Shown piece after piece: positions 28,858 to 50,865 of a stretch of DNA of 64,000 nt; position 1 is the stretch's first letter, and the number at the start of each line of letters is the position of its first letter. The notes under the pieces are model-generated. The model saw nothing but the letters and a program-made list of their open reading frames with translations. It had not been told where the DNA came from and searched no databases. The stretch covers positions 1,984,001 through 2,048,000 of the forward strand of contig NZ_CP003984.1 in assembly GCF_000738435.1 (NCBI RefSeq), in the 5' to 3' direction. Both the position numbers and the translations under genes were made by a program. This stretch comes from Planktomarina temperata RCA23 (GTDB taxonomy: Bacteria; Pseudomonadota; Alphaproteobacteria; Rhodobacterales; Rhodobacteraceae).

Positions 28858-29129
28858 TTTGAGCTCCTAATCTGACGCTGAATCGCGCTTTAGTGCAGGC
28901 AAGCCCCGTCTGGCAATCCCCTGAATTGCGCCTGGGATATGACCTTGCGTCATCAATTTTACCAGAAAATTAATCTGCGCACTGAGATGCGGGAAAATCG
29001 CACAGAATCACACCTCCCAAGCAGGTCCAAGAGCCGTTGGATCGATCAGCGTTGTTGTCACAATAATGGCGCCAAATACCTTCCCCTGCCGCCGCATTCT
29101 GTTATCCTGAGTGCAAGTTGGAGGATCGA

Positions 29130-32950: not shown

Positions 32951-34159
32951 ATGGCACTGGCGCAGCAAACCCCAAAAGCGCATAGCTATGATATAATCCT
33001 TATTGGCGGAGCTATGTATGGCAGCTCCATCGCCTGGTGGCTCAGCCGCGATCCGGGGTTTGACGGCTCGATTCTTGTGGTGGAGCGGGATCTCAGTTTT
33101 GAATGCGCGTCCACAAGCCACACCAATTCTTGCATCCGTCAACAGTTTTCAAACCCAACCAATATCCAAGTCAGCCAATTTGGCGCGGAGTTTATCAACA
33201 ATTTTCAAAGCTATTTTGATCACGACCCGCGTGTTCCGAAAATCCATATCCAATCTTTTGGCTATATGTATTTGGCCAATACCGCCGCCGGGGCCGAAAG
33301 CCTGCGGCACAGTCAAGCGCTGCAGGCACAAATGGGCGCTGGCACGCGGCATATGACAGCCTCTGAAATTCAGGCCGAATATCCGTTTTATCATGTGGGC
33401 GACATTACCGCAGGCAATCATAACACCGTCAACGAAGGCTATTTTGACGGCGGCACGATTTTTGATTGGTGCAAGCGCGTGGCCCAAGAAAAAGGCGCTG
33501 AATATGTGCAAAATGAGGTTGTGGCGATGGACCGGCACGCAGACCGCATCCACAGCGTGACCCTGGCCTCGGGCGAGAGGCTCAGCTGCGGGCTCGTGGT
33601 CAATTGCACAGGCCCGCGCGCCGCGCAAACTGCGCGTATGGCCGGGCTAGACTTGCCAGTTGAGCCGCGCAAACGCTACAGCTTCGTCTTTGATGCCGAG
33701 CAGCCGCTGGCGCGCGACCTTCCCCTCACCATCGACCCCTCTGGCGTGCATATGCGTTCGGAGGGGCGCTATTATCTTGCCGGCTGTCCGCCCGATGATG
33801 ATGCGCCCGTAGCCTATGACGATTTCACCCAAGACCATAGCATCTGGCAAGAGAAGGTCTGGCCCATCATCGCCGCCCGTGTGCCGCAATTCGAAACGAT
33901 CAAGCTGATCAACAGCTGGGCGGGACATTACGCCTATAACACCTTCGATCAAAACGCGATCATCGGCCCGCATCATCAGGTCGAGAACTTGCTCTTTGCC
34001 AATGGGTTTTCGGGCCACGGCTTGCAACAATCTATGGCCATCGGGCGCGGATTGGCCGAATTTATCACCTATGGCGCCTATCGCAGCATTGACCTTTCGC
34101 CCTTCGCATACAAACGTATCGAAGAGGGCAAACCCTTTTTAGAAAAGGCAGTAATTTGA
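32951..34159 (+). CDS. FAD-dependent oxidoreductase, DAO family (sarcosine-oxidase-like)
   Basis: D-amino-acid-oxidase-fold flavoprotein (402 aa). The FAD motif is present near residue 14 (YDIILIGGAMYGSSIAWWLS), with Ala-Met in place of the more usual second and third glycines. It then has FECASTSHTNSCIRQQFS, a segment common to glycine/sarcosine oxidase relatives, and SWAGHYAYNTFDQNAIIGP and NGFSGHGLQQSMAIGRGLAE near the C-terminus. Enzymes of this class oxidise secondary or primary amines of N-methyl or D-amino acids. It starts at the base after the hyuB stop and overlaps the next gene by four bases, so it belongs to the same operon. A cyclic N-substituted amide opened by HyuAB and then oxidised is plausible but unproven. 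Confidence 0.85.
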   Translation: MALAQQTPKAHSYDIILIGGAMYGSSIAWWLSRDPGFDGSILVVERDLSFECASTSHTNSCIRQQFSNPTNIQVSQFGAEFINNFQSYFDHDPRVPKIHIQSFGYMYLANTAAGAESLRHSQALQAQMGAGTRHMTASEIQAEYPFYHVGDITAGNHNTVNEGYFDGGTIFDWCKRVAQEKGAEYVQNEVVAMDRHADRIHSVTLASGERLSCGLVVNCTGPRAAQTARMAGLDLPVEPRKRYSFVFDAEQPLARDLPLTIDPSGVHMRSEGRYYLAGCPPDDDAPVAYDDFTQDHSIWQEKVWPIIAARVPQFETIKLINSWAGHYAYNTFDQNAIIGPHHQVENLLFANGFSGHGLQQSMAIGRGLAEFITYGAYRSIDLSPFAYKRIEEGKPFLEKAVI

Positions 34160-34995
34160 TGAAAAAACTCGTGTTAACCGGTGCCGCGGGACGGCTGGGC
34201 TCCTATCTGCGCGAACCGCTCAGCCAGATGTGTGACCGCCTGGTCTCCACCGATTGGACCGAGGACATCGGCAAGCTTTATCCCAGTGAGACCTATGTCA
34301 AAGCAGACCTAGGCGATCTGGAGGCCATGGAGGCGGTGCTTGATGGTGCGGATATGGTGGTCCATTTTGGGGCAATTGGCGATGAGGCCGCCTGGGACAA
34401 AATCCTACATTCCAATATCATTGGCGCCTATAATGTGTGGGAAGCAGCCGCGCGCAAGGGGCTGCGCCGCGTGGTCTATGCCAGCTCCATTCATGCGGTG
34501 GGCATGTATCCCAAAACCCAAAGGATCGACACAGAAGTGCCGCACCGCCCAGACACCTACTATGGTTTGGCAAAATGTTTCGCAGAGGATCTTGGCAGCC
34601 TCTATTGGGACAAAAAGGGCATTGAGAGTGTGCATCTGCGCATCCTATCGGCCGCACAGGTCAACAATCCGCGCGCGCTTGGCTCCTGGCTGTCCTATGA
34701 CGATCTGATCCATTTGGTTCAGCAGGCCATCACCACACCGATCACGGGCTTTTGCGTGATCTATGGCGTGTCCAATAATGACCGGGTCACGGTCGACAAT
34801 CACAAGGCGGCCTTCTTGGGATATCGCCCGAAAGACAATGCCGAGCAATGTGCAGAAGAGGTCTTGGCTGCCGCCGATCCGGCAGATCCGCATGATCCCG
34901 GGCAAATGTGCCAAGGCGGGCCCTTCGCTTCGGTGGAGATTGGATTTTCCGGCACGGCCAGCATGAATATCGTGCAAGACAAAAAAGAGATATAA
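34156..34995 (+). CDS. NAD-dependent epimerase/dehydratase, uronate dehydrogenase-like
   Basis: Extended SDR (279 aa) resembling uronate dehydrogenase (Udh), which oxidises hexuronic acids to aldarolactones with NAD. It has the NAD motif LVLTGAAGRLGSYLRE, NIIGAYNVWEAAARKGLRRV, VYASSIHAVGMYPKTQRID, and the catalytic Tyr and Lys in YYGLAKCFAEDLG. FLGYRPKDNAEQCAEE matches the Udh C-terminal region. Catalytic residues are intact, in contrast with the epimerase at 21394. It overlaps the FAD oxidoreductase by four bases. How uronate-type chemistry fits a hydantoinase operon is unclear, so the true substrate may be a different polyhydroxy or cyclic compound. Confidence 0.8.
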   Translation: MMKKLVLTGAAGRLGSYLREPLSQMCDRLVSTDWTEDIGKLYPSETYVKADLGDLEAMEAVLDGADMVVHFGAIGDEAAWDKILHSNIIGAYNVWEAAARKGLRRVVYASSIHAVGMYPKTQRIDTEVPHRPDTYYGLAKCFAEDLGSLYWDKKGIESVHLRILSAAQVNNPRALGSWLSYDDLIHLVQQAITTPITGFCVIYGVSNNDRVTVDNHKAAFLGYRPKDNAEQCAEEVLAAADPADPHDPGQMCQGGPFASVEIGFSGTASMNIVQDKKEI

Positions 34996-38102: not shown

Positions 38103-38220
38103 GCGGCCTCTCTATGTCGGTAGGCGCATGTTAATGGCGCGCGGTGAAATTGACAATTCCGCGCTGTGACAGGTCGCATATGGGCTTGCTCTTACGGGCG
38201 CGATGGGCTCCATTTGCGCC

Positions 38221-39267
38221 ATGGATATATTGCAAAACCCCCACCGCTCCACGGGCTTGACCGTCGACATCCTGCGCGACATCCCCGCCCCCTCGACCGA
38301 TGCGGCCTCAGTGCAAGCCCTTCTGGCCCGTTGTCCCGACGCCGCCGAAACGGACATGCTACAAGCGCCCAGCATGGCGCAAGATCTCAAGATCGCGCGG
38401 CTCAGCGTGAAAGATGAGCGCGGCCGCATGGGCCTGGGCAGTTTCAAAGCACTTGGCGCGGCCTATGTCATCGCCCATAGCGCCATCGTCAAAGGCGAAG
38501 CACAGAGCGCGAAAACCTATGTCACCGCCAGCGCTGGAAATCACGGGCTCAGCGTGGCGGCTGGCGCAAACGCCTTTGGCGCCGCCTCCGTGATCTTTCT
38601 GAGCCAGAGCGTGCCCGAAGCCTTTGCCGAACGCTTGATCGCTCAAGGCGCAACAGTTGAGCGCGCCGGCGAAACCTATGAGCAGAGCATGAGCGCGGCG
38701 CAAGCGGCGGCCGAAGCCAATGGCTGGACCCTGCTGTCGGACAGCTCTTGGCCAGGCTATAGCGATTTGAGCCATCGTTTGATGGAGGGCTATACCGTCT
38801 TTATGGCCGAAGCCGAGCGGCAAATTTCTGCGCCGACCCATATCTTCTTGCAAGCTGGCGTTGGCGGGTTGGCCGGAGCTGCAGCCGCGATGGCCCGCAA
38901 ACTTTGGGGCGATGCACCGGTGATCGTGGTGGTTGAACCACAGCACGCCCCCGCGCTGCACGGCTGCATTCAAGCCGGTGATTTCGTCGCTGCCAAAGGT
39001 CCAGGAAGCGCCATGGGGCGGCTGGATTGCCTGGAGGCCTCTTTGATTGCCCTGAAGGGGCTGGCCAAGGATGCCGATGTTTTTGCGCTCATCAGCGAAG
39101 AGGAAGGCCAAGCCGGCGCCGATTATGCCGCAGCCCATCAGATGGAGAGCACAGCCTCCGGGGCCGCGGGTCTGGCGGCGCTCTTGGCCTCACCGGCCCA
39201 TCGTGCAGCGCTCAAGCTTGACGCAAACTCCCATGTGCTTGTCATACTTTCAGAAGGTCCAGAATAA
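38221..39267 (+). CDS. PLP-dependent lyase, diaminopropionate ammonia-lyase-like
   Basis: Fold-type II PLP enzyme (348 aa from ATG 38221). The Schiff-base Lys is in RMGLGSFKALGAAYVIAHS. YVTASAGNHGLSVAAGANAF binds the substrate carboxylate, LSDSSWPGYSDLSHRLMEGY is shared with diaminopropionate ammonia-lyases, and IFLQAGVGGLAGAAAAMARK is the phosphate-binding glycine loop. The family eliminates ammonia from 2,3-diaminopropionate, D- or L-serine or related beta-substituted amino acids to give pyruvate. Another ATG six codons upstream is possible, as neither has a clear ribosome-binding site. Its stop shares a base with the M24 gene start (TAATG). It is the first gene of a tight three-gene operon. 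Confidence 0.8.
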   Translation: MDILQNPHRSTGLTVDILRDIPAPSTDAASVQALLARCPDAAETDMLQAPSMAQDLKIARLSVKDERGRMGLGSFKALGAAYVIAHSAIVKGEAQSAKTYVTASAGNHGLSVAAGANAFGAASVIFLSQSVPEAFAERLIAQGATVERAGETYEQSMSAAQAAAEANGWTLLSDSSWPGYSDLSHRLMEGYTVFMAEAERQISAPTHIFLQAGVGGLAGAAAAMARKLWGDAPVIVVVEPQHAPALHGCIQAGDFVAAKGPGSAMGRLDCLEASLIALKGLAKDADVFALISEEEGQAGADYAAAHQMESTASGAAGLAALLASPAHRAALKLDANSHVLVILSEGPE

Positions 39268-40406
39268 TGCCCCAAGGTTTTGAAACCACAGAATTCAAAG
39301 CGCGCCTGACAGGCGCACAAAGCCGCATGAATGCGGCGGATCTCGACGCTATTTTACTGACCACAGAGCCAGATATTCGCTATTTCACCGGCTATCTCAC
39401 AAGATTTTGGGAAAGCCCGTGCCGGCCTTGGTTCTTGGTCCTGCCCCGCTCTGGCGATCCCATTGCTGTCATCCCCTCAATTGGCGCCGCGCTCATGGCC
39501 CGCACATGGATCACAGATATTCGCACATGGCGTGCGCCAGATCTCGAAGATGATGGCATTAGCCTTTTGGCCGAGACACTGCGGGATTTAGGCCCTCGTA
39601 TTGGCACACCCAGCGGGTTGCAGTCACATCTGCGCATGCCGCTGGGCGATTTTGCCCGGCTCAATGCCGCTCTGCCCCAGCCGATTGGCGCGGATGCTGA
39701 CATTCTGCGCAGCCTGCGCTTGGTGAAATCTGAGGCTGAGATTGAGAAGATCAAAACCGCGTGCCAGATTGCCACCCGCGCCTTTGACCGCGTGCCGGAG
39801 ATTGCCCGCATCGGCCAGCCTTTGGCACCGGTGTTTCGAGATTTTCAGCGCCTCTGTCTGGATGAAGGCGCCGATTGGGTGCCCTATCTTGCCGGTGCTG
39901 CGGCGCCCGGCGGCTATGGCGATGTCATCTCTCCAGCGGACGACCGCCCGCTCGAGGCGGGAGATGTCTTGATGCTGGACACAGGCTTGGTGCATGATGG
40001 CTATTTTTGCGATTTCGATCGCAACTTTTCCGTGGGCAGCCCATCGCCGGATGTTGCCGCCGGACACAGCCGTCTGATTGAAGCCACATATGCCGCATTT
40101 GAAGCCGCACGACCTGGTGCGACCGCGGCGGAGCTGTTTCACGTTATGGATAAGATTGTCACCGGCGGCGCCGGCGGCTCCGAGGCGGGCCGCTATGGCC
40201 ATGGGCTGGGCATGAACCTCACCGAATGGCCAAGCCTGATCCCAACCGATCACACGCCGCTGGTAGAGGGCATGGTCCTCACCTTGGAGCCCGGCATCGA
40301 ATTGGCGCAAGGTCGCGCCTTGGTTCATGAGGAAAATATCGTCATTCGCGAGAATGGAGCCGAGTGGCTGAGCCAACCTTATGGCGCCGAAATGATTAGG
40401 GTTTAA
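39267..40406 (+). CDS. M24-family metallohydrolase (Xaa-Pro aminopeptidase/creatinase-like)
   Basis: Pita-bread-fold hydrolase (379 aa). The N-terminal creatinase-like domain has EPDIRYFTGYLTRFWESPCR. The C-terminal catalytic domain keeps all five metal ligands: the Asp residues in LMLDTGLVHDGYFCDFDRN, the His in YGHGLGMNLTEWP, the Glu in LTLEPGIEL and the Glu in VHEENIVIRENG. M24 members cleave Xaa-Pro peptides, creatine or other C-N bonds (for example the ectoine ring in DoeA). This protein lacks DoeA-specific N-terminal sequence, so ectoine is not claimed. It lies between the PLP lyase and the racemase-like gene with essentially no spacing, implying a joint pathway. Confidence 0.83.
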   Translation: MPQGFETTEFKARLTGAQSRMNAADLDAILLTTEPDIRYFTGYLTRFWESPCRPWFLVLPRSGDPIAVIPSIGAALMARTWITDIRTWRAPDLEDDGISLLAETLRDLGPRIGTPSGLQSHLRMPLGDFARLNAALPQPIGADADILRSLRLVKSEAEIEKIKTACQIATRAFDRVPEIARIGQPLAPVFRDFQRLCLDEGADWVPYLAGAAAPGGYGDVISPADDRPLEAGDVLMLDTGLVHDGYFCDFDRNFSVGSPSPDVAAGHSRLIEATYAAFEAARPGATAAELFHVMDKIVTGGAGGSEAGRYGHGLGMNLTEWPSLIPTDHTPLVEGMVLTLEPGIELAQGRALVHEENIVIRENGAEWLSQPYGAEMIRV

Positions 40407-40407
40407 C

Positions 40408-41154
40408 ATGAGCTTACTGCCATATGACATTGTTTCAATTGAACCAACTCGAATTGGGCTTGTGGTTTTGCAATCAGATGAAACCATCGAGCGCGATATG
40501 ATGCAGATGCGCGGCACCGCAGATCTTTTCTTTAGCCGCGTGCCCAGCGGGCAAGAGGTCACAGCTGAAACGCTGCAATCTATGGCGGGGCATATTGAGG
40601 CTTCAGCGGCGCTCTTTCCGCAGACCCTGCGCTTGAACGCCGTGGGCTATGGCTGCACGTCCGGCACGGCTCAAATTGGCGTGCAGGAGATTGAGCGGCT
40701 GGTGAAATCTGGCACAAAAACCCAGGCGGTCAGCCAGCCCGTCTCCGCATTGGTGGCAGCTTGCCAGCATCTCAAGCTCAAACGTATTGCGTTTTTGTCC
40801 CCCTACCTCGAGGAGGTCAGCGCCAATCTGCGGACGGTGTTGCAGCAGAACGGCGTTGAAACCCCAGTGTTTGGCACTTTCGGCGAGGCCGAAGAAACAA
40901 AAGTTGTGCGCATTTCTGGCGCATCGGTTCAAAGCGCGGCCCGTCATCTGCTCGCAGAGGGCGGGCTTGACGGCATTTTCCTCAGCTGCACCAACCTGCG
41001 CACCATGGATTTGATTGCCCCCATGGAAGCTGAGCTGGGCCTGCCTGTGCTGTCCAGCAACCTTGTGCTCGCGTGGCATCTCGCGCAGCTGTCTGGTGAT
41101 CCAAAGGCGTTGCAAGGTCCTGGCCGGCTCTTTGCCGCCCAGGCCGCCGAGTGA
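40408..41154 (+). CDS. Asp/Glu racemase-superfamily protein (maleate isomerase/AMDase-like)
   Basis: Cofactor-independent two-cysteine enzyme (248 aa). One catalytic Cys is in NAVGYGCTSGTAQIG and the other in GIFLSCTNLRTMDLI, the arrangement of maleate cis-trans isomerase and arylmalonate decarboxylase. EutA-type proteins in ectoine clusters also look like this. It starts one base after the M24 stop, so it is translated with the two genes before it. No N-terminal signal is present. It probably racemises or isomerises an intermediate made or used by the PLP lyase (inference). Confidence 0.82.
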   Translation: MSLLPYDIVSIEPTRIGLVVLQSDETIERDMMQMRGTADLFFSRVPSGQEVTAETLQSMAGHIEASAALFPQTLRLNAVGYGCTSGTAQIGVQEIERLVKSGTKTQAVSQPVSALVAACQHLKLKRIAFLSPYLEEVSANLRTVLQQNGVETPVFGTFGEAEETKVVRISGASVQSAARHLLAEGGLDGIFLSCTNLRTMDLIAPMEAELGLPVLSSNLVLAWHLAQLSGDPKALQGPGRLFAAQAAE

Positions 41155-41171: not shown

Positions 41172-41978
41172 TTAAACCCGCTGCAGAAAGTCAAAAACGG
41201 GCTGGGTAAAGGCCTCTGGCGCTTCGAGCAGCCCCAAATGCTTGAACTTCGGTATAATTTGGCACTCTGCCCCTGCGATTTCAGCGGCGATGTCCCGGCT
41301 CATCTGCGGCGTTGAACCCACATCTTCCGCGCAAGTCATCACCAAACTTGGCACGTTTAAGGCTGGAACTGGGCGAATTAACTCTCTGACCCCATGGGCC
41401 AAAACCCAGGCGGACTGCCCATAGCTCGTGCGATCCGCCTGCAGGCGCCAAGCCGCGACCTGCTGCGGGATTTCTGCATTCGAGGCCAGAAATTCCGGCG
41501 TGAACCACCGCTCCAATGCGGCCTGCAGCGTCGCCTCAGCGCCCCGATCCAGCGCCTTGCCTGCCCGCGTCTCCACCTCTTGCTGCATCTGCGCACCACG
41601 GTCATGGGGCGAATTCAAAATAACCAATGACCGCACCAAATGCGGGTGGTCCATGGCGACACGTCGATTGATCATCCCGCCAATGGAAAATCCAACCAGA
41701 TGTGCAGGGCCCAATGCGGTTTCCTCCAGCAGTCGGGCAATTTGATCGGCGAAGACCGACAGGTTGAGCGGGCGCTCTGCCGGAGCACTCTGCCCATGGC
41801 CATAAAGGTCATAACTCAAAACGCGATACCGGCCGCAGAGCGCTGGCAAATGGGCCTGCCACAGCGATGAGCTCAGCCCCAATCCATGGATCAGCACCAA
41901 TGGCGGCCCATCTTCGGGCCCGTCGAGCCTATAGGCCGTGTCATCGGCTGCTCTAAACACCAGCGGGATTGTCCACAT
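41172..41978 (-). CDS. Alpha/beta hydrolase (TgnD/PcaD-like)
   Basis: Alpha/beta-fold hydrolase (268 aa). It has the oxyanion motif LVLIHGLGLSSSLW, the nucleophile elbow AHLVGFSIGGMINRR (Ser), the acid MTCAEDVGSTPQM and the His in PKFKHLGLLEAPE. Relatives include 3-oxoadipate enol-lactonase and the N-methylformamido-methylene-succinate hydrolase of trigonelline breakdown. An open frame extends 27 codons upstream inside the DUF1185 gene. ATG 41978 gives a normal N-terminus (MWTIPLVFRAADD) and overlaps that gene by 26 bases. It is the last gene of the transporter-monooxygenase operon and would cleave the amide or ester product of ring opening. Confidence 0.85.
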   Translation of the reverse strand: MWTIPLVFRAADDTAYRLDGPEDGPPLVLIHGLGLSSSLWQAHLPALCGRYRVLSYDLYGHGQSAPAERPLNLSVFADQIARLLEETALGPAHLVGFSIGGMINRRVAMDHPHLVRSLVILNSPHDRGAQMQQEVETRAGKALDRGAEATLQAALERWFTPEFLASNAEIPQQVAAWRLQADRTSYGQSAWVLAHGVRELIRPVPALNVPSLVMTCAEDVGSTPQMSRDIAAEIAGAECQIIPKFKHLGLLEAPEAFTQPVFDFLQRV

Positions 41979-42549
41979 CGCGGCCCATATCGCGCAGATC
42001 ATCATAGCGGTTGCCAATCCGGTGCAAAGGATGGCCACCAATGGAGGCGCCAAGCGCAATCAAAATCTCATCCTCGGCAGGCGCATCCGGCACGGTGGTG
42101 TGAATGGTTTGGTAATGGCTTCGCATACCGCCATCATCCTTATGCATCAACGGGATCATCAAGGATGTGCCCGCGCCGCCGCGCGTATTGGTAAAAGCGA
42201 GATAGGACTTGGCATTGACCGCCTCACGAAACTGATTGCCGAAATGCAGCGTATGCGTCATCGCTTGCGCGTGCTCGACCTCGCCGCCCATGCCGACAAT
42301 ACTGGCTTTGCCGCAGCCCTCAATCTTATCCCCACAAATCTCAAGCAACAGATCGGTCAAGAGCTTACCCAGCACCGGCCCATGCTCTTGAATTTCTGGC
42401 CGGAGATTCTCAACCCACCCGCGACCAAACCAAGGGTTTTTGACAATCGCCATGGCGCTCACCAATTTGGTTGGCACCGGCACAGCCTTGCCCCCCTCCT
42501 CATAGGTGGTTTGCACCAGCGTCAACGTGCGGCGAATTTCAATACTCAT
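41953..42549 (-). CDS. DUF1185 / amino acid synthesis family protein
   Basis: A 198-aa protein of the PF06684 amino-acid-synthesis (DUF1185) family, whose biochemical activity is not known to me. It has MSIEIRRTLTLVQTTYEEGG at the start, the Pro-Trp segment AIVKNPWFGRGWVENLRP, EHAQAMTHTLHFGNQFREAV and IALGASIGGHPLHRIGNRYD. It lies between the flavin monooxygenase (11 bp upstream) and the hydrolase (overlapping). Such proteins recur beside luciferase-like monooxygenases in proteobacterial catabolic clusters. A role on an unstable ring-opened intermediate is possible but not shown. Confidence 0.82.
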   Translation of the reverse strand: MSIEIRRTLTLVQTTYEEGGKAVPVPTKLVSAMAIVKNPWFGRGWVENLRPEIQEHGPVLGKLLTDLLLEICGDKIEGCGKASIVGMGGEVEHAQAMTHTLHFGNQFREAVNAKSYLAFTNTRGGAGTSLMIPLMHKDDGGMRSHYQTIHTTVPDAPAEDEILIALGASIGGHPLHRIGNRYDDLRDMGRDVDNPAGV

Positions 42550-42560
42550 GGCGACATCCT

Positions 42561-43595
42561 TCAGGTAAATTCTGGCATAACATGGTCAATGAAACTTTGG
42601 AGGGAGCGTTTCTGCTCTGCCATCCCCAATCCCATTGACGCATAATAAATAAAAGCATCAACGCCCAAAGCCTCATAACGGCGCAGTTTTGCAATCACCT
42701 GGTCGGGCGATCCAAACATCAGATTTTCCTCAAGCATTTCTGGATCTACACGGACATTGCCCTCTAAGTCCTCCGCAGAGACCTCATCGGGAAAGCCATT
42801 GTGCACCGCTCCAGTTTTGGTCATCAGATTGCCAAATCTTCCCAAAACGCTGCGAATGGCGTCCATGGCTGCGGCGCGATCTTCTTTTGTCTCGTAAACC
42901 GCCGTGTGGCGCATCATGGCGAATGTGCCATCCCAGCCATTGCCCGCTGTCTCAATGGCCTCATCGAGCTGCGCTTTATATTTTTCCGCCTCCGCAAAGG
43001 GCATGGAAAACGGCCAAGACATAATGTTGCAGTGATTGGCCACCGCATAGTCAAAGGTGATGGGCGAGCGGGCCGCAACCCACATTGGCACCTCGCCTTG
43101 CAGCGGCTTGGGGCAGGATGTGGCCGCAGGGAACTGCCAATATGTTCCGTCATGTGTCACATCCCCCTGCCAAAGCTTGCGCACCAAAGGCAGCATTTCT
43201 TGCATATAGCGCCAGCTGTCACTTTGGGCCAATCCGGGCTTCATACGGTCAAACTCACGTTGATAGGCCCCCGAACCCAGGCCCAAATCCAACCGCCCGT
43301 CGGATAGGAGATCAACCATGGCCGCTTCACCCGCCAGATTGATCGGATGCCAATAGGCCGCATTGGCCACGCCGCATCCCAAGCGGATGTTTTCGGTGTG
43401 ATCCGCCCACCACGTCATAATTTGAAACGGATTGGGCGCAATAGTCATTTCCAGCGCGTGATGCTCCGCCGCCCAAGCAATTTCAAAGCCAGCTCGGTCA
43501 GCCATTTGAACCATTTCGAGGACATGATCGCGCACCGCGCGCATATCTGTCTGCGCATCCATACGTTCTAAATTTATCGCAATGTGAAACTTCAT
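42561..43595 (-). CDS. LLM-class flavin-dependent monooxygenase
   Basis: Luciferase-like (beta/alpha)8 monooxygenase (344 aa) that uses reduced FMN supplied by a separate reductase. It has ERMDAQTDMRAVRDHVLEMV, IAWAAEHHALEMTIAPNPFQ (the EHH motif of luciferase-alpha relatives), NIRLGCGVANAAYWHPINLA and LSDGRLDLGLGSGAYQREF. GSPDQVIAKLRRYEALGVD lies near the C-terminus. The start is ATG 43595 (MKFHIAIN); a 37-codon upstream extension lies in the aldehyde dehydrogenase region. It sits 4 bp downstream of the aldehyde dehydrogenase. Its probable partner is the flavin reductase at 50377. Ring-cleaving oxygenation of an N-heterocycle is the leading guess. Confidence 0.88.
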   Translation of the reverse strand: MKFHIAINLERMDAQTDMRAVRDHVLEMVQMADRAGFEIAWAAEHHALEMTIAPNPFQIMTWWADHTENIRLGCGVANAAYWHPINLAGEAAMVDLLSDGRLDLGLGSGAYQREFDRMKPGLAQSDSWRYMQEMLPLVRKLWQGDVTHDGTYWQFPAATSCPKPLQGEVPMWVAARSPITFDYAVANHCNIMSWPFSMPFAEAEKYKAQLDEAIETAGNGWDGTFAMMRHTAVYETKEDRAAAMDAIRSVLGRFGNLMTKTGAVHNGFPDEVSAEDLEGNVRVDPEMLEENLMFGSPDQVIAKLRRYEALGVDAFIYYASMGLGMAEQKRSLQSFIDHVMPEFT

Positions 43596-43599
43596 CTGA

Positions 43600-45075
43600 T
43601 CACCTTGGTTGAAAGGGGTTGGCGATAGGATCATCCGACAGGTTGACCCAGATGGTTTTGGCCCGGGTGTAATCATACATGGCTTGCAGCCCAGCCTCCC
43701 GCCCATGGCCGGAGGTTTTCACGCCTCCAAATTCAGCAATCGGCGAAATCATTCGGTAGGTATTGACCCAAACCATTCCGGATTTCAATGCTTTGGCCAA
43801 ACGCAGTTGCCGGGCGCCATCGCGGGTAAACAGCCCCGCGGCCAGCCCATGCTTGGTGTCATTGGCCAGGGCCAAAACCTCCGATTCCGTGCGAAACCGC
43901 TGGACGGCCAGCACCGGGCCAAAAAGCTCCGTGTCGACAATGGTCATATCTTGGCGCGGGCATTCGATGATGGTGGGTTCAAAGAACAAACCCGGCCCCG
44001 CAAGGCGGCGCCCGCCGCAAAGAAGCGTGCCCCCCTCCTCAATGGCCAGGGCCACTTGCCGCTCGATATGTTCAATTTGCCCAAGCGTGCATAGGGGGCC
44101 CATTTCCGTCGCATCGGCCTGAGGATCGCCAATGACAATGCCGCGGGCGATGTTGAGCATACGCGCCAAAAAGTCATCCGCTATGTCGTCATGCAAATAG
44201 AGCCGTGAGCCCGCCACGCAGGATTGACCGCTGGCCGCGAATATCCCAGCAATCGCACCATTCACAGCGCTCTCGATATTGGCATCGTCGAAAACAATAA
44301 TCGGGGATTTGCCGCCCAACTCCAAACTCACTTCTGCAAAATTTTCCGCAGAATTCTTGATCACCTGTGCCGCAGCCGCCGGCCCGCCCGTGAACGCGAC
44401 GCGCGCCACTTTCGGATGACGGGTTAATTCCCGACCGCAAACCGCGCCATGCCCGGTAATGATATTGACCACACCGGGCGGGATACCAGCCTCAGCCACC
44501 AACTTCCCAAAGGCCAAGAGGGGCGCACTGGCATGTTCGGAGGCCTTTAGCACCATCGTATTGCCTGCGGCCAGCGCCGGGCCCAGCTTGGTCGCGGTGA
44601 GGAACATTTGGCTGTTCCAAGGGATCACCGCCGCGATGACCCCCAAGGGCTCTCGGTTCGTAAACACAAACATTTCAGGCTTATCAATCGGCAATGTATC
44701 ACCGCTGATCTTATCGGCGGCACCCGCAAAAAAATGCAAATATTCGGCGATATAGGTGGCCTGCCAAGCGGTTTCCTTGAACATTTTACCGGTGTCGCGG
44801 GTCTCGATGCGCCCGATCTCTTCGGAATGGGCCGCCAAGAGATCTGCCAGACGGGCCAAATGCTTGCCGCGCTGGGTGGGGGTCATAGCCCCCCAGGGAC
44901 CGTCCAAGGCCGCCGCTGCGGCTTCCACAGCCCGGTTCACATCCGCATAGGTGGCCTCTGGGATGCGGGCCCAAGCCAGGCCGGTGGAGGGATCAATGCA
45001 GTCAAAGGCCGCCCCATCCGAGGCCGCGCACCACTGGCCATCAATCAGCATCTGCAATGTTTCAAGTTCAGCCAT
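43600..45075 (-). CDS. Aldehyde dehydrogenase (catabolic operon)
   Basis: Complete NAD(P)-dependent aldehyde dehydrogenase (491 aa). It has IAAVIPWNSQMFLTATKLGP (Rossmann entry), the catalytic Glu in VSLELGGKSPIIVFDDANIE, the nucleophilic Cys in FAASGQSCVAGSRLYLHDD, and EFGGVKTSGHGREAGLQAMY at the C-terminus. It follows the permease genes on the same strand and precedes the flavin monooxygenase by 4 bp. In the trigonelline-type scheme it would oxidise the semialdehyde (or its cyclic hemiacetal) formed by oxygenolytic ring opening, as TgnC does. No sign of damage. Confidence 0.9.
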   Translation of the reverse strand: MAELETLQMLIDGQWCAASDGAAFDCIDPSTGLAWARIPEATYADVNRAVEAAAAALDGPWGAMTPTQRGKHLARLADLLAAHSEEIGRIETRDTGKMFKETAWQATYIAEYLHFFAGAADKISGDTLPIDKPEMFVFTNREPLGVIAAVIPWNSQMFLTATKLGPALAAGNTMVLKASEHASAPLLAFGKLVAEAGIPPGVVNIITGHGAVCGRELTRHPKVARVAFTGGPAAAAQVIKNSAENFAEVSLELGGKSPIIVFDDANIESAVNGAIAGIFAASGQSCVAGSRLYLHDDIADDFLARMLNIARGIVIGDPQADATEMGPLCTLGQIEHIERQVALAIEEGGTLLCGGRRLAGPGLFFEPTIIECPRQDMTIVDTELFGPVLAVQRFRTESEVLALANDTKHGLAAGLFTRDGARQLRLAKALKSGMVWVNTYRMISPIAEFGGVKTSGHGREAGLQAMYDYTRAKTIWVNLSDDPIANPFQPR

Positions 45076-45184
45076 ATGCCCCTCCCCTGCTTTTTCCCTG
45101 CAAGACTAGCAGAGTTTCATAGCAAAAAAGGAAAATTGCGTCGCTTGTCCTCACGAAAACCGACGCCAGGTGATAAATTTTGCC

Positions 45185-46426
45185 TTAGGAGGGGCTGACA
45201 CCGCGCAGACGCTCCGATCTGCGGCGCAGCAATTCCACCGTAGTCAAAAGCAAGATCGAGATGATGACCAAGATCGTTGCGACAGCCAAGATAGTGGGCG
45301 AAATCTGCTCACGAATGCCGCTGAACATCTGCCGCGGGATCGTACGCTGGCGCACATCCGCCAGTTGCAACACCGCCACGACCTCGTCAAAGCTCGTGAT
45401 AAAGGCAAAAAGCGCCCCGGAAATGACCCCAGGCAGAATCAATGGCATTTGCACCTTAAAGAAGGTACGGATCGGCCCCGCCCCCATATTCGCGCTGGCC
45501 CGGGTCAGGGATTGATCAAAGCCCGACAAGGTGGCCGTCACCGTGATGATCACAAATGGTGTGCCCAAAGCCGCATGAGCCAGAATGATGCCAAGATAGG
45601 TCTTCGCCAAGCCGACACTCGAGAAAAAGAAAAACAGACCCGAGGCGGTGATCACCAAGGGCACAATCATCGGTGAAATCAACAAGGCCATGATTGGGCG
45701 GCGCCAGGGCATATCGCTGGAGGACAGGCCAACTGCGGCCAGAGTGCCCAGAGCTGTCGAGATCATCGTGGCCCAGAAGCCAATGAAAAAGGAGTTGCGA
45801 ATGGAGCGAATCCATTGCGCATTCGACCACATATCACTCCACCAACCGACAACCGCCTCCGGATCCACCATGCCATTTTGCAATATGTCGATATACCAGC
45901 GCATCGAATAGGCCAGTGGATCAAAGCGCAGCATTCCGGGGGTGAAACTGAAATAGGGCTCTTGGTTAAAGCTCAAAGGGATCAGCACGAAAATCGGCAT
46001 AATCAAAAAGACAAAGATCATGCCGCAAATCATGCGAAAACTGTAGAACCAGAGCACTTGCCGCGCCGTGGCATAGGGCGGCAGGTTCAATCGATAGCGG
46101 CCCGAAGCCAGCCAACAGGTCATGCCACCGGCAATATAGCCCACAATGGCCATCAACACGCCGTAGGCAAAGCCAACCAATCCAGTCCCAACAGCGAAGA
46201 AGGCGATCACACCCAGCCATGCGGCCAGGCGTCCACGATCCCCAAGCCGGGTCACCGCAAAAGAAAAGGCCGCAAAGAGCGCCGCGCCAATGGCCAAAAA
46301 GGGCAGCATGAGCCCTGTATCGCCCTGGGCAGTCATCAAACCAGCCAAGCCGCCAAAGCCTGCCAAAATTCCCACAGTGAACCCCAGAGGAGGTTTGGGT
46401 GGAATATAACGATAGTCACCTGTCAT
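45185..46426 (-). CDS. ABC transporter permease, PotC-type with extra N-terminal membrane region
   Basis: Inner-membrane subunit (413 aa) of a polyamine/opine-type ABC importer. The PotC-like core occupies about residues 145-405. It includes the ATPase-contact loop with EAA-type motif (LTRASANMGAGPIRTFFKVQ) followed by MPLILPGVISGALFAFITSF. Ahead of it are about 140 residues with four extra hydrophobic segments (for example MLPFLAIGAALFAAFSFAV), absent from E. coli PotC (about 264 aa). It starts 5 bp after the other permease. In-frame stop and motifs are normal. Confidence 0.85.
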   Translation of the reverse strand: MTGDYRYIPPKPPLGFTVGILAGFGGLAGLMTAQGDTGLMLPFLAIGAALFAAFSFAVTRLGDRGRLAAWLGVIAFFAVGTGLVGFAYGVLMAIVGYIAGGMTCWLASGRYRLNLPPYATARQVLWFYSFRMICGMIFVFLIMPIFVLIPLSFNQEPYFSFTPGMLRFDPLAYSMRWYIDILQNGMVDPEAVVGWWSDMWSNAQWIRSIRNSFFIGFWATMISTALGTLAAVGLSSSDMPWRRPIMALLISPMIVPLVITASGLFFFFSSVGLAKTYLGIILAHAALGTPFVIITVTATLSGFDQSLTRASANMGAGPIRTFFKVQMPLILPGVISGALFAFITSFDEVVAVLQLADVRQRTIPRQMFSGIREQISPTILAVATILVIISILLLTTVELLRRRSERLRGVSPS

Positions 46427-46431
46427 TGGTC

Positions 46432-47682
46432 TTATCCCAGTTTCATATTGTCGATGCCCACCACGCGGTCATAGACCCAGAAGAGGAACATCACGAACAC
46501 CAGCATCACCAGCCCCAGGGCCGCCGCAAGGTTCCAGTTCAGTGATTTTCGCATGTGGAAATCGATGATGTTTGACACCATCTGCCCATCTTGCCCGCCA
46601 ACCAGCGCCGGGGTGATGTAATAGCCAATGGCCAAAATGAAGACCAACAAAGCCCCTGCCCCAATGCCCGGCACGGATTGCGGGAAATAGACGCGCCAAA
46701 AGGCCGTCCAATCCGTTGCGCCCATCGACTTGGCCGCCCGCACATAGCTGGGTGGAATGGTTTTCATGACAGAAAACAACGGCAAGATCATGAAGGGCAG
46801 CAAAATATGGGTCATGGCAATCAATGTGCCGGTTTTGTTGTAGATCAAACTGAAGCGATCCTCATCCGTCGCCAGACCAAAGACCACAAAGAGGTCATTC
46901 ATCACCCCTTGAGCTTGAAGCATGGCGATCCAAGCGGTGGTGCGCACCAGCAGCGACGTCCAAAATGGCAAAAGCACTAAGATCAACAGCAAGTTCGAGG
47001 TGCGCAGCGGCAGGGAGGCCATCAGAAAGGCAATGGGATAGCCGAGGATCAAGCAAAATATCGTGACCAAAAAGGAAATTTCCATTGTCCGCGCAAAGAG
47101 CTGCACGTGAATGCGGCGTTCTTCACTTTGCTGTATGATGGACCCGTCGGCCAGCATTTTGCGGTCCAAAGCCGCCGCGATATAGGCGGGCGTAAAGATC
47201 CGGCTGGCGGTTTTCATCGCATGCCAGGTTTCAATATCGGCCCAATCTTTGTCTTTCTTGATCAAAGCCTCCATATAGGGCGGCTTCATTTTCTTGGCGT
47301 TGCGGGCGGTCTTGGTAAAAAGGCTCCGGGTGCCGCTCAGCTCGCGGTTGACCCGCGTGGCCACTTTCCCGATGGTTTTTTCTTTTTTTGCCACCACCAA
47401 ATCGGCCACCAAGGCGGCGGCCATCTGTTCGGTCGGCGCCGTGCTGCCATCCCAATCGGCCATGGCCTCGGAGGTCGCAGGCATCAGCGTCGCGAACCGC
47501 GCATCATAGACTGATTGGCGCAAGAAATCCAAAATAGGGTAGACAAAAACCACAATGATAAACGCCAAAAGCGGAAGAGCCAGACCAAAGGCCCGCGCTC
47601 GGCTTCGAAACATCGATTGCGCCAATTTCCGCTTTAGGGGGGTACCATCTACCGCAAGAAGCGGTTCAGAGGAGTCCGTCAT
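46432..47682 (-). CDS. ABC transporter permease, PotB-type with long first periplasmic loop
   Basis: Second inner-membrane subunit (416 aa). After a first membrane helix (LALPLLAFIIVVFVYPILDF) comes a hydrophilic insert of roughly 150 residues (about 60-200), rich in charged residues, where E. coli PotB has a short loop. The remaining helices are typical and include the EAA-type loop VRAAKSMGATDWTAFWRVYF. The long loop may contact the binding protein. It is separated from the binding-protein gene by 62 bp containing a stem-loop, and is followed by the other permease after 5 bp. Confidence 0.85.
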   Translation of the reverse strand: MTDSSEPLLAVDGTPLKRKLAQSMFRSRARAFGLALPLLAFIIVVFVYPILDFLRQSVYDARFATLMPATSEAMADWDGSTAPTEQMAAALVADLVVAKKEKTIGKVATRVNRELSGTRSLFTKTARNAKKMKPPYMEALIKKDKDWADIETWHAMKTASRIFTPAYIAAALDRKMLADGSIIQQSEERRIHVQLFARTMEISFLVTIFCLILGYPIAFLMASLPLRTSNLLLILVLLPFWTSLLVRTTAWIAMLQAQGVMNDLFVVFGLATDEDRFSLIYNKTGTLIAMTHILLPFMILPLFSVMKTIPPSYVRAAKSMGATDWTAFWRVYFPQSVPGIGAGALLVFILAIGYYITPALVGGQDGQMVSNIIDFHMRKSLNWNLAAALGLVMLVFVMFLFWVYDRVVGIDNMKLG

Positions 47683-47712
47683 AGGTTCAAGATCCCAAAA
47701 TAAAAAGAGAAT

Positions 47713-47732
47713 GGGGCGCCCAAGAGCGCCCC
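47713..47732 (-). terminator. Stem-loop between binding protein and permease genes
   Basis: On the minus strand GGGGCGC-TCTTGG-GCGCCCC forms a 7-bp GC stem with a 6-base loop, followed by ATTCTCTTTTTATTTTG. It sits just after the stop of the substrate-binding protein and before the permease pair. In ABC operons such hairpins act as partial terminators or 3'-end stabilisers, giving more binding protein than permease. The T run is imperfect, so read-through is likely. Confidence 0.65.
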
Positions 47733-47744
47733 ACCAAAATCAAA

Positions 47745-48836
47745 TTAGTTGATCAACCAAGCGTTGAAACGCTCGTTGAGCTCATCTGCATTGTCAGCCC
47801 AGAATTCAAAGTCATTCGGAATAGCTGTTGCAAAGTTCGCAGGCGCCGTTGGCATTTGCGGACCCATATCCAGATCTGGATTGCTATGGTATGTGCTCAC
47901 CAGCGGTGCCGATGATTTACGTGCAGGACCATAGGAGATGTAGGACGCTTGTGCTGCCAATTGCGCAGTCTCAGTGGAGAACTTCAAGAAGTCCATCGCA
48001 AGATCTGCATTTGGAGCACCTTTCACAATCGCCCACATGTCGAAGTCAAACACCTGCGCGTCCCAGACAATCTCAAACGGCTTGTTTTCGGAGGCAACAG
48101 CATTGAAAATACGGCCGTTATAGGCTGTGGTCATCGCAACTTCGCCATCTGCCAGCAATTGTGGTGGCTGTGCGCCCGCTTCCCACCAAACAACATCATT
48201 CTTGATGGTGTCGAGTTTTGCAAATGCACGGTCTACGCCTGCATCTGTGCCCAAAACTTCATAGACGTCTTCAGGAGCCACACCATCCGCAGCCAATGCC
48301 ATTTCAAGCGTTGCTTTTGGAGATTTGCGCAGGCCACGTTTGCCTGGGAATTTAGATGTGTCGAAGAAATCTGCGATTGTTTTCGGGCCGTTTGGCATGG
48401 CAGATTTGTCATAGGCGAAAATAGTGGACCAAACGATGTTTGCCACAGCACAATCGGTGAAAGAGCCATCGACAAAGTCTTCCTCAGCAGGCGTTCCGTC
48501 CGCGCCCGCTGGCAAAGAGGCCGGGTCAATTTCCATGAACAGGCCTTCATCACAGCCACGCACCGCATCGGACTTTTCAACATCGATGATGTCCCAGGTC
48601 ACATTGCCCGCTTCAACCTGTGCTTTCACCTCTGCAATACCGCCAGAATAGTCTTCTGATACAACGGTGTTACCGGTCGCCGCAGTCCAAGGCTTATGAT
48701 AGGCTTCGATTTGTGATTTGGTGTAAGCGCCACCCCAAGATACCGCTGTGATACTGCCTGTGTGGCTACCGGCAAACGCGCTGGTGGCGCCAAGCGCCAG
48801 AGCGGTTCCGGTCAAAAGTAGAGTTGTCTTTTTCAT
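47745..48836 (-). CDS. ABC transporter substrate-binding protein, PotD/PotF-like
   Basis: Periplasmic binding protein (363 aa). It opens with a signal peptide (KKTTLLLTGTALALGATSAF, cleaved after AFA). The mature start is ITAVSWGGAYTKSQIEAYHK, typical of the polyamine/opine SBP class. TWDIIDVEKSDAVRGCDEGL, VWSTIFAYDKSAMPNGPKTI and ALLADGEVA-type ligand-site segments follow. GGGAG lies 9 bases before ATG 48836 and only 3 before an in-frame ATG at 48842, so 48836 is preferred. Codons are strongly biased, consistent with high expression. The PotD class binds cations such as putrescine or quaternary amines; this ligand is not determined. Confidence 0.87.
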   Translation of the reverse strand: MKKTTLLLTGTALALGATSAFAGSHTGSITAVSWGGAYTKSQIEAYHKPWTAATGNTVVSEDYSGGIAEVKAQVEAGNVTWDIIDVEKSDAVRGCDEGLFMEIDPASLPAGADGTPAEEDFVDGSFTDCAVANIVWSTIFAYDKSAMPNGPKTIADFFDTSKFPGKRGLRKSPKATLEMALAADGVAPEDVYEVLGTDAGVDRAFAKLDTIKNDVVWWEAGAQPPQLLADGEVAMTTAYNGRIFNAVASENKPFEIVWDAQVFDFDMWAIVKGAPNADLAMDFLKFSTETAQLAAQASYISYGPARKSSAPLVSTYHSNPDLDMGPQMPTAPANFATAIPNDFEFWADNADELNERFNAWLIN

Positions 48837-48912
48837 AATCATAGTCTCCCAGTTAAAACTTAGTTATTGGCCCCGATCTACGCCGGGGGTCGTTGTCCGA
48901 CTTGGAGGCTGC

Positions 48913-50010
48913 TTAAGCGTCCAAAGCGCGGCAATCTTCGGGCATCCAGCCAATCTCAATTTGCGTGCCTGGTTTCAGACGCACTTGATCTGGCGCGTTG
49001 CGCGTTTTGATAATGAACTCATCATTGCCCGCCACGCGCAACCGCGTGCGGAAAATATCGCCCATATAGATGAACTCAAGAACCTCTGCTTGAAGCGTGT
49101 GCACACCTTTTTGCAAACGATCCTTGTTATATTCGACTCGCTCCGGGCGAATGGACACACGCGTGCGCTCACCCGGCTTGGTTACATTAACCGGTTTACA
49201 ATCGATCAAATCGCCACTGTCGAGCTCAACCAAAGCCACACCGTTTTTGATCTCTTTGACCACACCTTCAAGGGTGTTATTCTCGCCGATAAACTGCGCC
49301 ACAAAGCTATTTTCGGGGCTTTCATAAAGCTCGTCGGGCGGGGCGATTTGCTGGATGACCCCATCGTTGAACACTGCAACCCGATCCGACATTGTCAGGG
49401 CTTCAGTTTGGTCGTGGGTCACATAGACCACTGTGATCCCAAGTTTATGGGCCAAATCTGTGATCTCAAACTGCATCTTTTCCCGCAGTTGTTTGTCGAG
49501 GGCTCCCAAAGGCTCATCCATCAACACCAGTTCCGGCTCAAAGACCAAAGCCCGCGCCAATGCGATGCGCTGCTGCTGCCCACCTGACAGCTGGGCCGGA
49601 CGGCGCGTTATAAAATCTCCCATCTCAACCATATCCAGCGCGCGCTTCGCCTTAGCCTCACGCTCAGATTTTCCGAACTTGCGCACCTCCAAGGGGAACG
49701 ACAGGTTCTCCCCGACAGTCATATGCGGGAACAAGGCATAGTTTTGGAACACCATACCAATGCCACGTTTGTGAGGTGGGATATTGTTGATGGGCTTTCC
49801 ATCAAGCAAAATTTCTCCGTGCGTGGCGGTCTCAAATCCGGCCAACATCATCAGGCAGGTGGTTTTGCCGGAACCCGATGGGCCCAACATGGTTAAGAAC
49901 TCACCCCGTGGAATAGCTAAATTCAGGTCTTTGACCACTAAAACTTCGCCGTCGTAACTCTTTTGCACGCGTTGAAATTCAACAAATGCTTTCGTCTGTG
50001 CCTCAGCCAA
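48913..50010 (-). CDS. ABC transporter ATPase, PotA-like
   Basis: ATP-binding subunit (365 aa) of the importer. It shows Walker A ([20 protein letters not shown]), the Q-loop ([18 protein letters not shown]), the ABC signature ([15 protein letters not shown]) and Walker B ([19 protein letters not shown]), plus the switch His in [13 protein letters not shown]-terminal TOBE regulatory domain follows (about residues 290-360). It is the first gene of the long minus-strand operon (ATPase, binding protein, permeases, aldehyde dehydrogenase, monooxygenase, DUF1185, hydrolase). The promoter must lie in 50011-50376, shared with the divergent flavin reductase. Confidence 0.93.
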
Positions 50011-50376
50011 ACCTTGATCCCCGTGTTTTCCAATCTCGGTGGATTGGTATTATTGTGTCGGTGATTAACAAACAAACATTAGCGTGACGCAACCGGAAAC
50101 TTGAAAATATCGGCAATTTGACCCAATTTTTTTCGCGGCACCCGCTTCGGGCTGCATTACCTTGCAAAAAAACCTCGGAATGATCCGTTTTTTTTGAAGA
50201 AACTTGTCAAGGCAACTTTACGGGTCAGGTGCAAACAGAATCAGCCACCGCAAAAGTCGCCCCTGTCACTGGCACCATTCAGATTACGAAAGAAAAGACA
50301 GATCACGCCATTGAATTGTGCCGCAAAGAAGATATGTCTGGTTCGAGAAATTTTCGTGACAGGGACAGGAAAAACC
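50011..50376. promoter_or_regulatory. Divergent control region of transporter operon and flavin reductase
   Basis: This 366-bp stretch has no gene (an open frame upstream of the reductase, 50194-50376, has no family resemblance and is rejected). It is visibly AT-rich, with T tracts at 50128-50134 and 50189-50196. It separates the ABC-ATPase start from the flavin reductase start, so promoters for both transcripts and any operator of a substrate-responsive regulator should lie here. No regulator gene is adjacent, and I could not pin a specific operator. Confidence 0.55.
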
Positions 50377-50865
50377 ATGGTTGACCGCAGCTTATTCATT
50401 GAGGCGATGCGCCATGTGGCGCAATCTGTCACGGTCGTCACCACTCAGGGCGCTGACGGATGCACGGGCGCAACCGTCAGCGCTTTTTCCTCTCTCTCGG
50501 CCGACCCGCCCTCCGTTTTGGTCTGTTTGAGATCCGACAGCCGGATCGGTCTGGCGGTGGGGCGCAATCGGGTATTTTGCGTTAATGTTCTGCCTGAAGG
50601 GGCAAGCGCGCTGGCTGGCCGCTTTGCGGGTCGATTTGACGCCGAAGAGCCCGATCGTTTTGGCGCCATCGACTGCCGCCACTCCCGCAGCGGGCCCGTG
50701 CTCAGCGGCGCCACAGCCTTCGAATGTACCGTGGATCAAATCATCACCCATGGCAGCCATGACATCTGTATTGGAAATGTGACAGCCATCACCAATGCCG
50801 CCACCCCCCCCTTGGCCTATATGGACGGCAGCTTTCACATTGTGCGCCCCGAAGGGGCCTCTTAG
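50377..50865 (+). CDS. Flavin reductase (HpaC/TgnB-like), partner of LLM monooxygenase
   Basis: Flavin:NAD(P)H reductase (162 aa) of the flavin-reductase-like FMN-binding barrel family. It has FIEAMRHVAQSVTVVTTQGA, GATVSAFSSLSADPPSVLVC (flavin site) and IGLAVGRNRVFCVNVLPEGA, and near the end the His of ITHGSHDICIGNVTAITNAA. The length fits stand-alone reductase components. ATG 50377 follows GGGACAGGA. It is transcribed divergently from the transporter operon. The only oxygenase in the vicinity needing external reduced flavin is the LLM protein at 42561, so the two are taken as one two-component monooxygenase (inference). Confidence 0.88.
   Translation: MVDRSLFIEAMRHVAQSVTVVTTQGADGCTGATVSAFSSLSADPPSVLVCLRSDSRIGLAVGRNRVFCVNVLPEGASALAGRFAGRFDAEEPDRFGAIDCRHSRSGPVLSGATAFECTVDQIITHGSHDICIGNVTAITNAATPPLAYMDGSFHIVRPEGAS

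Follow-up and report, generated by a model that had tools for sequence, protein, structure and literature searches.

A divergent, putative flavin-dependent ring-opening module beside a PotABCD-type importer in Planktomarina temperata, with homarine as candidate substrate

Gene content and layout of the locus

The stretch of Planktomarina temperata RCA23 DNA analysed here (the window; 64,000 nucleotides, positions 1984001-2048000 of a single 3,288,122-base contig) carries eight genes on one strand, running from 50010 to 41172 in the order ATPase, periplasmic binding protein (SBP), permease, permease, aldehyde dehydrogenase (ALDH), luciferase-like flavin monooxygenase (LLM), DUF1185 protein and alpha/beta hydrolase. 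No intergenic gap in this run exceeds 109 nt between the ATPase start at 50010 and the hydrolase stop at 41172, and a flavin reductase gene (50377-50865) is divergent from it. An earlier note, made from the sequence alone, had proposed that these genes import and open the ring of an N-methylated pyridine carboxylate such as trigonelline or homarine. Profile matches confirmed every gene it had named (importer, ALDH, LLM, DUF1185, hydrolase and divergent flavin reductase), and the LLM and flavin reductase are encoded together in one divergent unit, as it had said. The features, in window coordinates and with paired bit values given as score/cut-off here and below, are:

50377..50865, plus strand: flavin reductase, RutF/HpaC-like; PF01613 109 bits; probable 162 aa
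48913..50010, minus strand: ABC ATPase, PotA type; TIGR01187 376/356 bits
47745..48842, minus strand: SBP of the PotD/GABA (gamma-aminobutyrate)/opine type; best solved structure 8jv1, E 3e-84
47710..47735, minus strand: hairpin of 11 pairs (7 G-C) with T-rich tail, directly after the SBP gene
46432..47682, minus strand: ABC permease, PotB-like, with long N-terminal extension
45185..46426, minus strand: ABC permease, PotC-like, with long N-terminal extension
43600..45075, minus strand: ALDH, TgnC-like; PF00171 514 bits
42561..43595, minus strand: LLM; PF00296 190 bits; 344 aa
41953..42549, minus strand: DUF1185/AA_synth protein, a conserved partner of the module; PF06684 195 bits
41172..41978, minus strand: alpha/beta hydrolase; PF00561 93 bits; probable 268 aa from an inferred start; overlaps the DUF1185 gene by 26 nt

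The LLM, for which the AlphaFold model has a pLDDT of 88.8, is the predicted ring-opening oxygenase and the flavin reductase its predicted donor of reduced flavin mononucleotide (FMNH2). The nearest curated model for the ALDH is betaine-aldehyde dehydrogenase, below its cut-off (456/669 bits), and the catalytic Cys (GQSC) and Glu (LELGGK) motifs are kept. The hydrolase is PcaD-like, yet with a score below the cut-off; it keeps the nucleophile motif GFSIG, is TgnD-like and is predicted to hydrolyse an N-formyl enamide. Solved relatives of the DUF1185 protein are 2qtp (E 8e-27) and 3byq. The SBP, matched after 8jv1 by 4i1d, MotA and a GABA sensor, has a poor predicted structure (pLDDT 54). Hairpins of the type found after the SBP gene occur at chance level in the whole region (12 observed, 12.3 expected); this one is a possible attenuator.

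With the LLM of Rhodobacteraceae bacterium IMCC1909 the window LLM shares 99% identity, and with that of the metagenome-assembled genome (MAG) 'Planktomarina sp.' K_MB221_1 it shares 95%. A second LLM of the same kind was not found in the P. temperata genome, where the next match is 23% identical (E 2.8e-4).

Clades of the module and the trigonelline system

An LLM match at E 1e-60 or better was present in 93 of 292 genomes drawn from the order. We mapped 20 stretches of up to 20 kb around matches that were like those of the window's clade (clade A, below) or intermediate, and 15 around weaker matches; loci are denoted L and genomes G. The flavin reductase, ALDH, LLM, DUF1185 and hydrolase genes stand together in most loci of both mapped sets, with partial gene sets only in some (e.g. 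L038, L044, L049 and L061). Because this enzyme block recurs across genera and, going by MAG titles, phyla, the gene grouping is not due to chance.

In a tree of 46 LLMs, clade A comprised A1 (12 rows including the window LLM; support 100/100) and A2-like rows; clade B (21 rows; 100/100) was separate from the window's clade; and clade C (3 rows; 100/99) consisted of Agrobacterium pAt, Thalassospira and L048. The ALDH and hydrolase trees, each of 40 proteins, sorted the loci broadly as the LLM tree did, with clade B as one side of a branch in each (support 92 and 99, respectively). In the hydrolase tree, A1 including the window hydrolase was one side of a branch (96), with A2 as its sister and apart from B; in the ALDH tree, A2 was placed inside A1. 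Because L045 and L046 combine the A1 gene order with LLMs among the A2-like rows, A1 and A2 appear not to be cleanly split by every gene. Judged from the three trees, the ALDH and hydrolase share descent with those of tgn-like clusters, and the likeness to the two-component trigonelline ring-opening system that the earlier note had drawn was borne out for the enzymes. Grouping with the Tgn enzymes, which it had suggested as a check, held for the descent of the module and failed for the window LLM, which lies in A1, outside clade B (100/100).

Degradation of trigonelline by the Tgn system of Acinetobacter baylyi was reportedly described by Perchat and colleagues in 2018. An Acinetobacter baumannii record from a plasmid collection has a GntR regulator, DUF1185-hydrolase-flavin reductase-LLM-ALDH-permease-porin and then succinate-semialdehyde dehydrogenase (SSADH), the permease and porin being named by eye; we take this gene set to match the tgn set of A. 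baylyi. Sinorhizobium meliloti pSymA carries GntR and DUF1185-hydrolase-flavin reductase-LLM-ALDH-NIPSNAP-PotABCD-SSADH between nodL/noeAB and nifAB, presumably where the trc trigonelline genes of this species lie. Clade B is thus of the trigonelline kind. DUF1185 and ABC-type uptake had been put forward as differences from the Tgn set; they instead belong to the known kind, since both occur in the pSymA run and DUF1185 also in the A. baumannii cluster.

Clade B loci with GntR were termed B1 and those with LysR B2; B2 modules adjoin the gene for N-methylglutamate dehydrogenase (mgd) and a transporter of the window type, and a B-type module is present in the AT-rich 1.4-Mb genome G765, whose size and G+C suggest a SAR11-like organism. 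Tgn and clade B loci resemble A1 in that the genes for the flavin reductase, LLM, ALDH, hydrolase and DUF1185 protein are clustered, and several B1 loci resemble the window in having PotABCD alongside. They differ in LLM sequence (A1 and B are 35-39% identical, and a comparison of 8 A with 5 B rows showed 24 positions at which the two are fixed for different residues), in gene order (usually flavin reductase-ALDH-LLM-DUF1185-hydrolase in A1, and DUF1185-hydrolase-flavin reductase-LLM-ALDH in clade B), in the length of the flavin reductase (about 162-172 aa in A1, 311 in clade B) and in regulator (LysR in 42 of 57 A1 loci, GntR in Tgn and B1). SSADH, which the trigonelline route includes (TgnE), was not seen near A1. 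A homologue at least 48% identical to the pSymA gene lay within 10.5 kb of the LLM at 5 of 17 B1 loci, none of 11 B2, none of five unassigned B, none of 10 A2, one of six C and none of 93 A1 entries (entries not de-duplicated). It was likewise absent from the window cluster and from the 51 named A1 loci whose flanks reach 9 kb or more in each direction; 0/51 for A1 versus 5/17 for B1 gives a Fisher p of 6e-4, ignoring kinship. Since most B1 loci are without SSADH too, this is a weak criterion, and the lack in A1 is only a hint against a trigonelline route.

For A1, 80 named loci were kept from 505 relatives, 57 with LLM flanks of 4 kb or more in both directions, the other 23 being dropped for too little flanking sequence. 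Within 4 kb of the LLM in the 57 (queries at E 1e-12, with misses possible) were found the hydrolase (51), ALDH (48), DUF1185 (45), LysR (42), a thiamine-pyrophosphate (TPP) enzyme (39) and a short flavin reductase (22), the last a 41-57% homologue that stands before ALDH-LLM where seen. The typical A1 operon is thus LysR, then (flavin reductase)-ALDH-LLM-DUF1185-hydrolase-TPP enzyme. The TPP enzyme, its usual last gene (e.g. L032:11515-13206), is sulfoacetaldehyde-acetyltransferase-like (434/620 bits); no orthologue was found in the P. temperata genome (best match 33-34%). Neither LysR nor a TPP enzyme of the A1 type was seen in the three Planktomarina loci, where the PotABCD importer stands in front and the flavin reductase is divergent. 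By title, A1 hosts are Roseobacter-group genera, SAR116 (two MAGs), MAGs called Granulosicoccaceae, Acidimicrobiales and Rhizobiaceae, and others, mostly marine groups going by these names.

A2 modules (Ruegeria pomeroyi, Parasedimentitalea and Aminobacter) are like A1 in having sister LLM, ALDH and hydrolase, and like the window in having PotABCD adjoining; they are unlike A1 in having RidA, carnitine-like CoA genes and a GlxA-type regulator. Genome G509 was taken as R. pomeroyi from its 100% match to chain 2qtp, which we take to be SPO0826 of that species. It holds one A-clade LLM (66%; 2860548-2861576) and no B-clade LLM; the only further LLM match reaching E 1e-15 has 29% identity. The A2 locus (L088) comprises AcylDH, PotABCD, BKACE, a GlxA regulator, carnitine-dehydrogenase-like and crotonobetainyl-CoA-hydratase-like genes, LLM and ALDH, and then divergent RidA, hydrolase, a CoA-transferase/flavin reductase fusion and DUF1185. 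The fusion, in which the CoA-transferase is CaiB-like, occurs in Parasedimentitalea (L068:7028-9151, 707 aa; domains shown) and in R. pomeroyi (L088:13437-15548, 703 aa), and suggests a monooxygenase step and a CoA step in one pathway. By gene counting the R. pomeroyi module corresponds to about SPO2698-2712. SPO2699-2702 are PotABCD by order and annotation, with values of 3.1-5.4 for Micromonas co-culture (PMC9870897). The same counting makes SPO2708 the ALDH, whereas PMC10041152 gives it as a carnitine dehydratase, and the two are not reconciled; tags of the series SPO269-, SPO270- and SPO271- do not appear in the main text of PMC9723723, PMC9038784, PMC8027193 or PMC12817926. The DUF1185 structures BB2672 and SPO0826 belong to the same Pfam family as the window protein, unlike which SPO0826 adjoins branched-chain amino-acid transport genes and no LLM (PMC2954203).

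Importer and neighbouring genes

A transporter of the window type was near A1 operons in 6 of the 80 named loci, namely three of Planktomarina, Loktanella sp. Alg231-35 (L169), an uncultured Rhodobacteraceae (L164, the place in genome G111) and a Paracoccaceae MAG (L151). The SBPs near A1 operons, including that of the window, form a clade of their own, apart from those of A2 and B1. Between two Planktomarina loci the SBP (47745-48842 and L131:4332-5429) is 45-46% identical while ATPase, LLM and ALDH are 86-88% identical, as if importer specificity had been exchanged or had evolved fast.

Beyond the hydrolase lie four associated island genes:

40408..41154, plus strand: EutA/arylmalonate-decarboxylase-like protein; TIGR02990 130/318 bits; convergent with the hydrolase gene, 17 nt between
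39267..40406, plus strand: M24 creatinase-fold hydrolase
38203..39267, plus strand: pyridoxal-phosphate-dependent lyase (PALP), diaminopropionate ammonia-lyase-like, 236/276 bits
37257..38102, minus strand: DUF1989 protein; PF09347 151 bits

Homologues of these genes recur near other LLM modules, and a 69% homologue of the DUF1989 protein adjoins three B2-type modules. The PALP-M24-EutA trio is also found as its own gene run and recurs beside LLM modules of two clades. The M24 family, present in 154 of the 292 genomes, is more widely spread than the LLM modules, and an M24 homologue lay within 15 kb of the LLM at at least 15 of 98 LLM places (150 M24 rows listed). We conclude that the importer and the LLM module make up a recurrent island with the trio.

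Elsewhere in the window, 29118-34995 holds hydantoinase/oxoprolinase A and B genes, a DAO-type oxidase and an epimerase-like gene; homologues of HyuA (67-74%) are near A1 operons in L034, L132, L177 and L207 and near a B module in L066. A dimethylsulfoniopropionate-demethylase-like aminomethyltransferase (27751-28857) scores 357 bits, below the 410 cut-off. The gene at 1618-2862 encodes a sarcosine-oxidase beta-type protein of the SoxB family, above cut-off, and is one of four paralogues matched in the genome; it was rejected as N-methylglutamate dehydrogenase, since its identity is 48% to the mgd gene of R. pomeroyi, against 81% to a different gene of that species.

Substrate, proposed route and alternatives

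As mgd query we used the G509 gene at the expected place of SPO1586, which is mgdC in PMC10041152. At E 1e-195, N-methylglutamate dehydrogenase was present in 118 of the 292 genomes: in 13 of 17 that have an A module alone, 50 of 72 that have a B module alone and 53 of 199 that lack both, two intermediate genomes being kept apart and kinship ignored. The P. temperata orthologue lies at 2099361 and is 88% identical to the R. pomeroyi gene, itself at 1.68 Mb. The mgd gene is near A1 operons in L138, L139 and L162, and near B modules in five stretches that were chosen for close LLM and mgd positions. This association speaks for an N-methylated substrate in both clades but by itself leaves homarine and trigonelline undistinguished.

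The homarine operon that Ferrer-Gonzalez and co-workers are said to have described in 2026 is homABCDER, from Rhodobacterales and SAR116, with N-methylglutamate as product and Mgd involved. The taxa and product reported for it fit A1, five enzymes and a regulator would fit the operon size, and the A1 module may already have been described in that paper. The 2026 report of homarine catabolism is cited in PMC13390433 (Ferrer-Gonzalez et al.); among the titles returned by a literature search on homarine degradation genes and homABCDER, none named such genes. On present evidence homarine (N-methylpicolinate) is the better supported of the two substrates. In its favour are the lack of SSADH near A1 loci, the mgd association, the mostly marine A1 hosts and R. 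pomeroyi, a species that takes up homarine released by diatoms, with a mean lifetime of at most 2 h (PMC12817926), and that has an A-clade LLM and none of clade B. Our joint reading, held tentatively at a little short of an even chance, is that the operon represents a diverged (clade A1) form of the flavin-dependent module that opens the trigonelline ring, and that homarine is its most likely substrate.

Several observations weigh against it. The enrichment in mgd holds for B modules as well, and the B2 modules could themselves be the homarine (hom) genes. The R. pomeroyi module is of the A2 sub-type and set among carnitine-like genes, an arrangement that leaves open a carnitine-like or CoA-dependent route. 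Moreover, A1 and A2 modules occur together in three genomes (G106, G130 and G251), which suggests that they differ in function; this weakens the argument from R. pomeroyi and lowered our estimate from an even chance to its present level.

The gene content, the common descent of the module, its clade structure and the associations were observed directly; the site of ring cleavage, which sequence does not reveal, is a prediction. In the route that we envisage, PotABCD would bring in the cation, or one of a set of osmolytes. The flavin reductase would then supply FMNH2, with which the LLM would add O2 beside the N+ and split C5-C6 to give an N-formyl, C5-aldehyde chain, as in the Tgn chemistry. 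The aldehyde would be oxidised by the ALDH, and the hydrolase, with DUF1185 as helper, would remove formate to leave N-methyl-dehydroglutamate, which may go to N-methylglutamate or to 2-oxoglutarate and methylamine. N-methylglutamate dehydrogenase, encoded elsewhere in the genome, would complete the route. The methylamine, formate and C4/C5 acid that the earlier note gave as products remain predictions.

That the operon instead degrades trigonelline, A1 being a second, iso-functional lineage of the Tgn module, appears improbable to us. The five gene families are the same as in tgn-like clusters, and at E 1e-60 the A1 and B LLMs never co-occur among the 292 genomes, so that one could replace the other; yet SSADH is near none of the 51 A1 loci, the LLM has diverged from B as described, and G027 and G288 hold A2 and B LLMs together. 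We give no greater weight to clade A acting on a non-pyridine quaternary or N-alkyl compound akin to carnitine or gamma-butyrobetaine, with A2 revealing the true pathway. The genes that directly adjoin A2 modules are indeed carnitine-dehydrogenase-like, crotonobetainyl-CoA-hydratase-like, BKACE and CaiB-like ones, and the CaiB-like gene is fused to that of the flavin reductase. The Parasedimentitalea homologues nevertheless fall below carnitine cut-offs (305/414 and 305/500 bits), the importer verified for carnitine in R. pomeroyi maps to another place (SPO2995-2998; PMC10130141), and the 57 A1 loci showed neither a carnitine-dehydrogenase-like nor a RidA gene in the 4 kb around the LLM, although a hydratase-like gene is near in L153. 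Polyamine, pyrimidine (Rut) or alkanesulfonate use is very improbable. It is suggested by the Pot-type transporter, the RutF-like reductase (90.8/255 bits) and the RutD-like hydrolase (78.6/238.5 bits); against this, the matched Rut, Ssu and Pot equivalog models all scored below their cut-offs (SBP to PotF 19.9/636 bits; permeases 153/348 and 132/326 bits), the PotA subfamily model alone among the polyamine importer models being reached. No RutB- or RutC-like gene was among the cluster Pfam matches, nor RutA among the LLM and cluster family matches listed (25 of 32 families). Closest kinship with polyamine or alkanesulfonate enzymes, which the earlier note had named as a finding that would speak against it, was not supported (LLM 38.9 bits against the 518-bit SsuD cut-off).

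A separate question, compatible with any reading of the enzymes, is whether the importer serves the module. The earlier note had it carry the LLM substrate, a proposal made less certain by genomes in which the importer is contiguous with M24-EutA. There is a sizeable minority chance that it is a component of the PALP/M24/EutA/DUF1989 arm (a pathway for an ectoine-like solute) and lies fortuitously upstream of ALDH-LLM, the LLM substrate entering otherwise: in G111, G010, G121 and G135 (the last two being genomes of one genus, g22) a transporter with an 81-84% identical ATPase directly follows M24-EutA on the same strand. However, none of seven examined trio loci without an LLM module (L218-L220 and L224-L227; no EutA seen in L219) has the transporter, whereas five of eight loci with trio and LLM examined in full do (G000, G111, G010, G121 and G135; not G183, G221 and G239). 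The transporter is also 5-10 kb from the A1 operon in Loktanella L169 and MAG L151, and contiguous with ALDH-LLM-DUF1185-hydrolase in the window. A broader picture, which we regard as rather unlikely in its entirety, is that clade A is a ring-opening lineage for homarine (or a close betaine) joined to three ways of product disposal: in typical A1, a TPP enzyme; in A2 (R. pomeroyi), CoA-thioester/beta-keto cleavage with a fusion of CoA-transferase and flavin reductase; and in Planktomarina, neither of these. There the module would be joined to PotABCD and to an ectoine-like PALP/M24/EutA/DUF1989 island that is also found beside distantly related B2 modules and N-methylglutamate dehydrogenase.

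On the evidence examined, the finding is a variant of the trigonelline kind, and both the operon and its host group may already be known. Algae and plants use homarine and trigonelline as nitrogen-rich osmolytes. Telling homarine-type from trigonelline-type ring-opening operons by a rule based on sequence would make metatranscriptomes readable for the turnover of each, and would give a physiological setting to DUF1185, a domain of unknown function with solved structures, and to Planktomarina, a pelagic Roseobacter.

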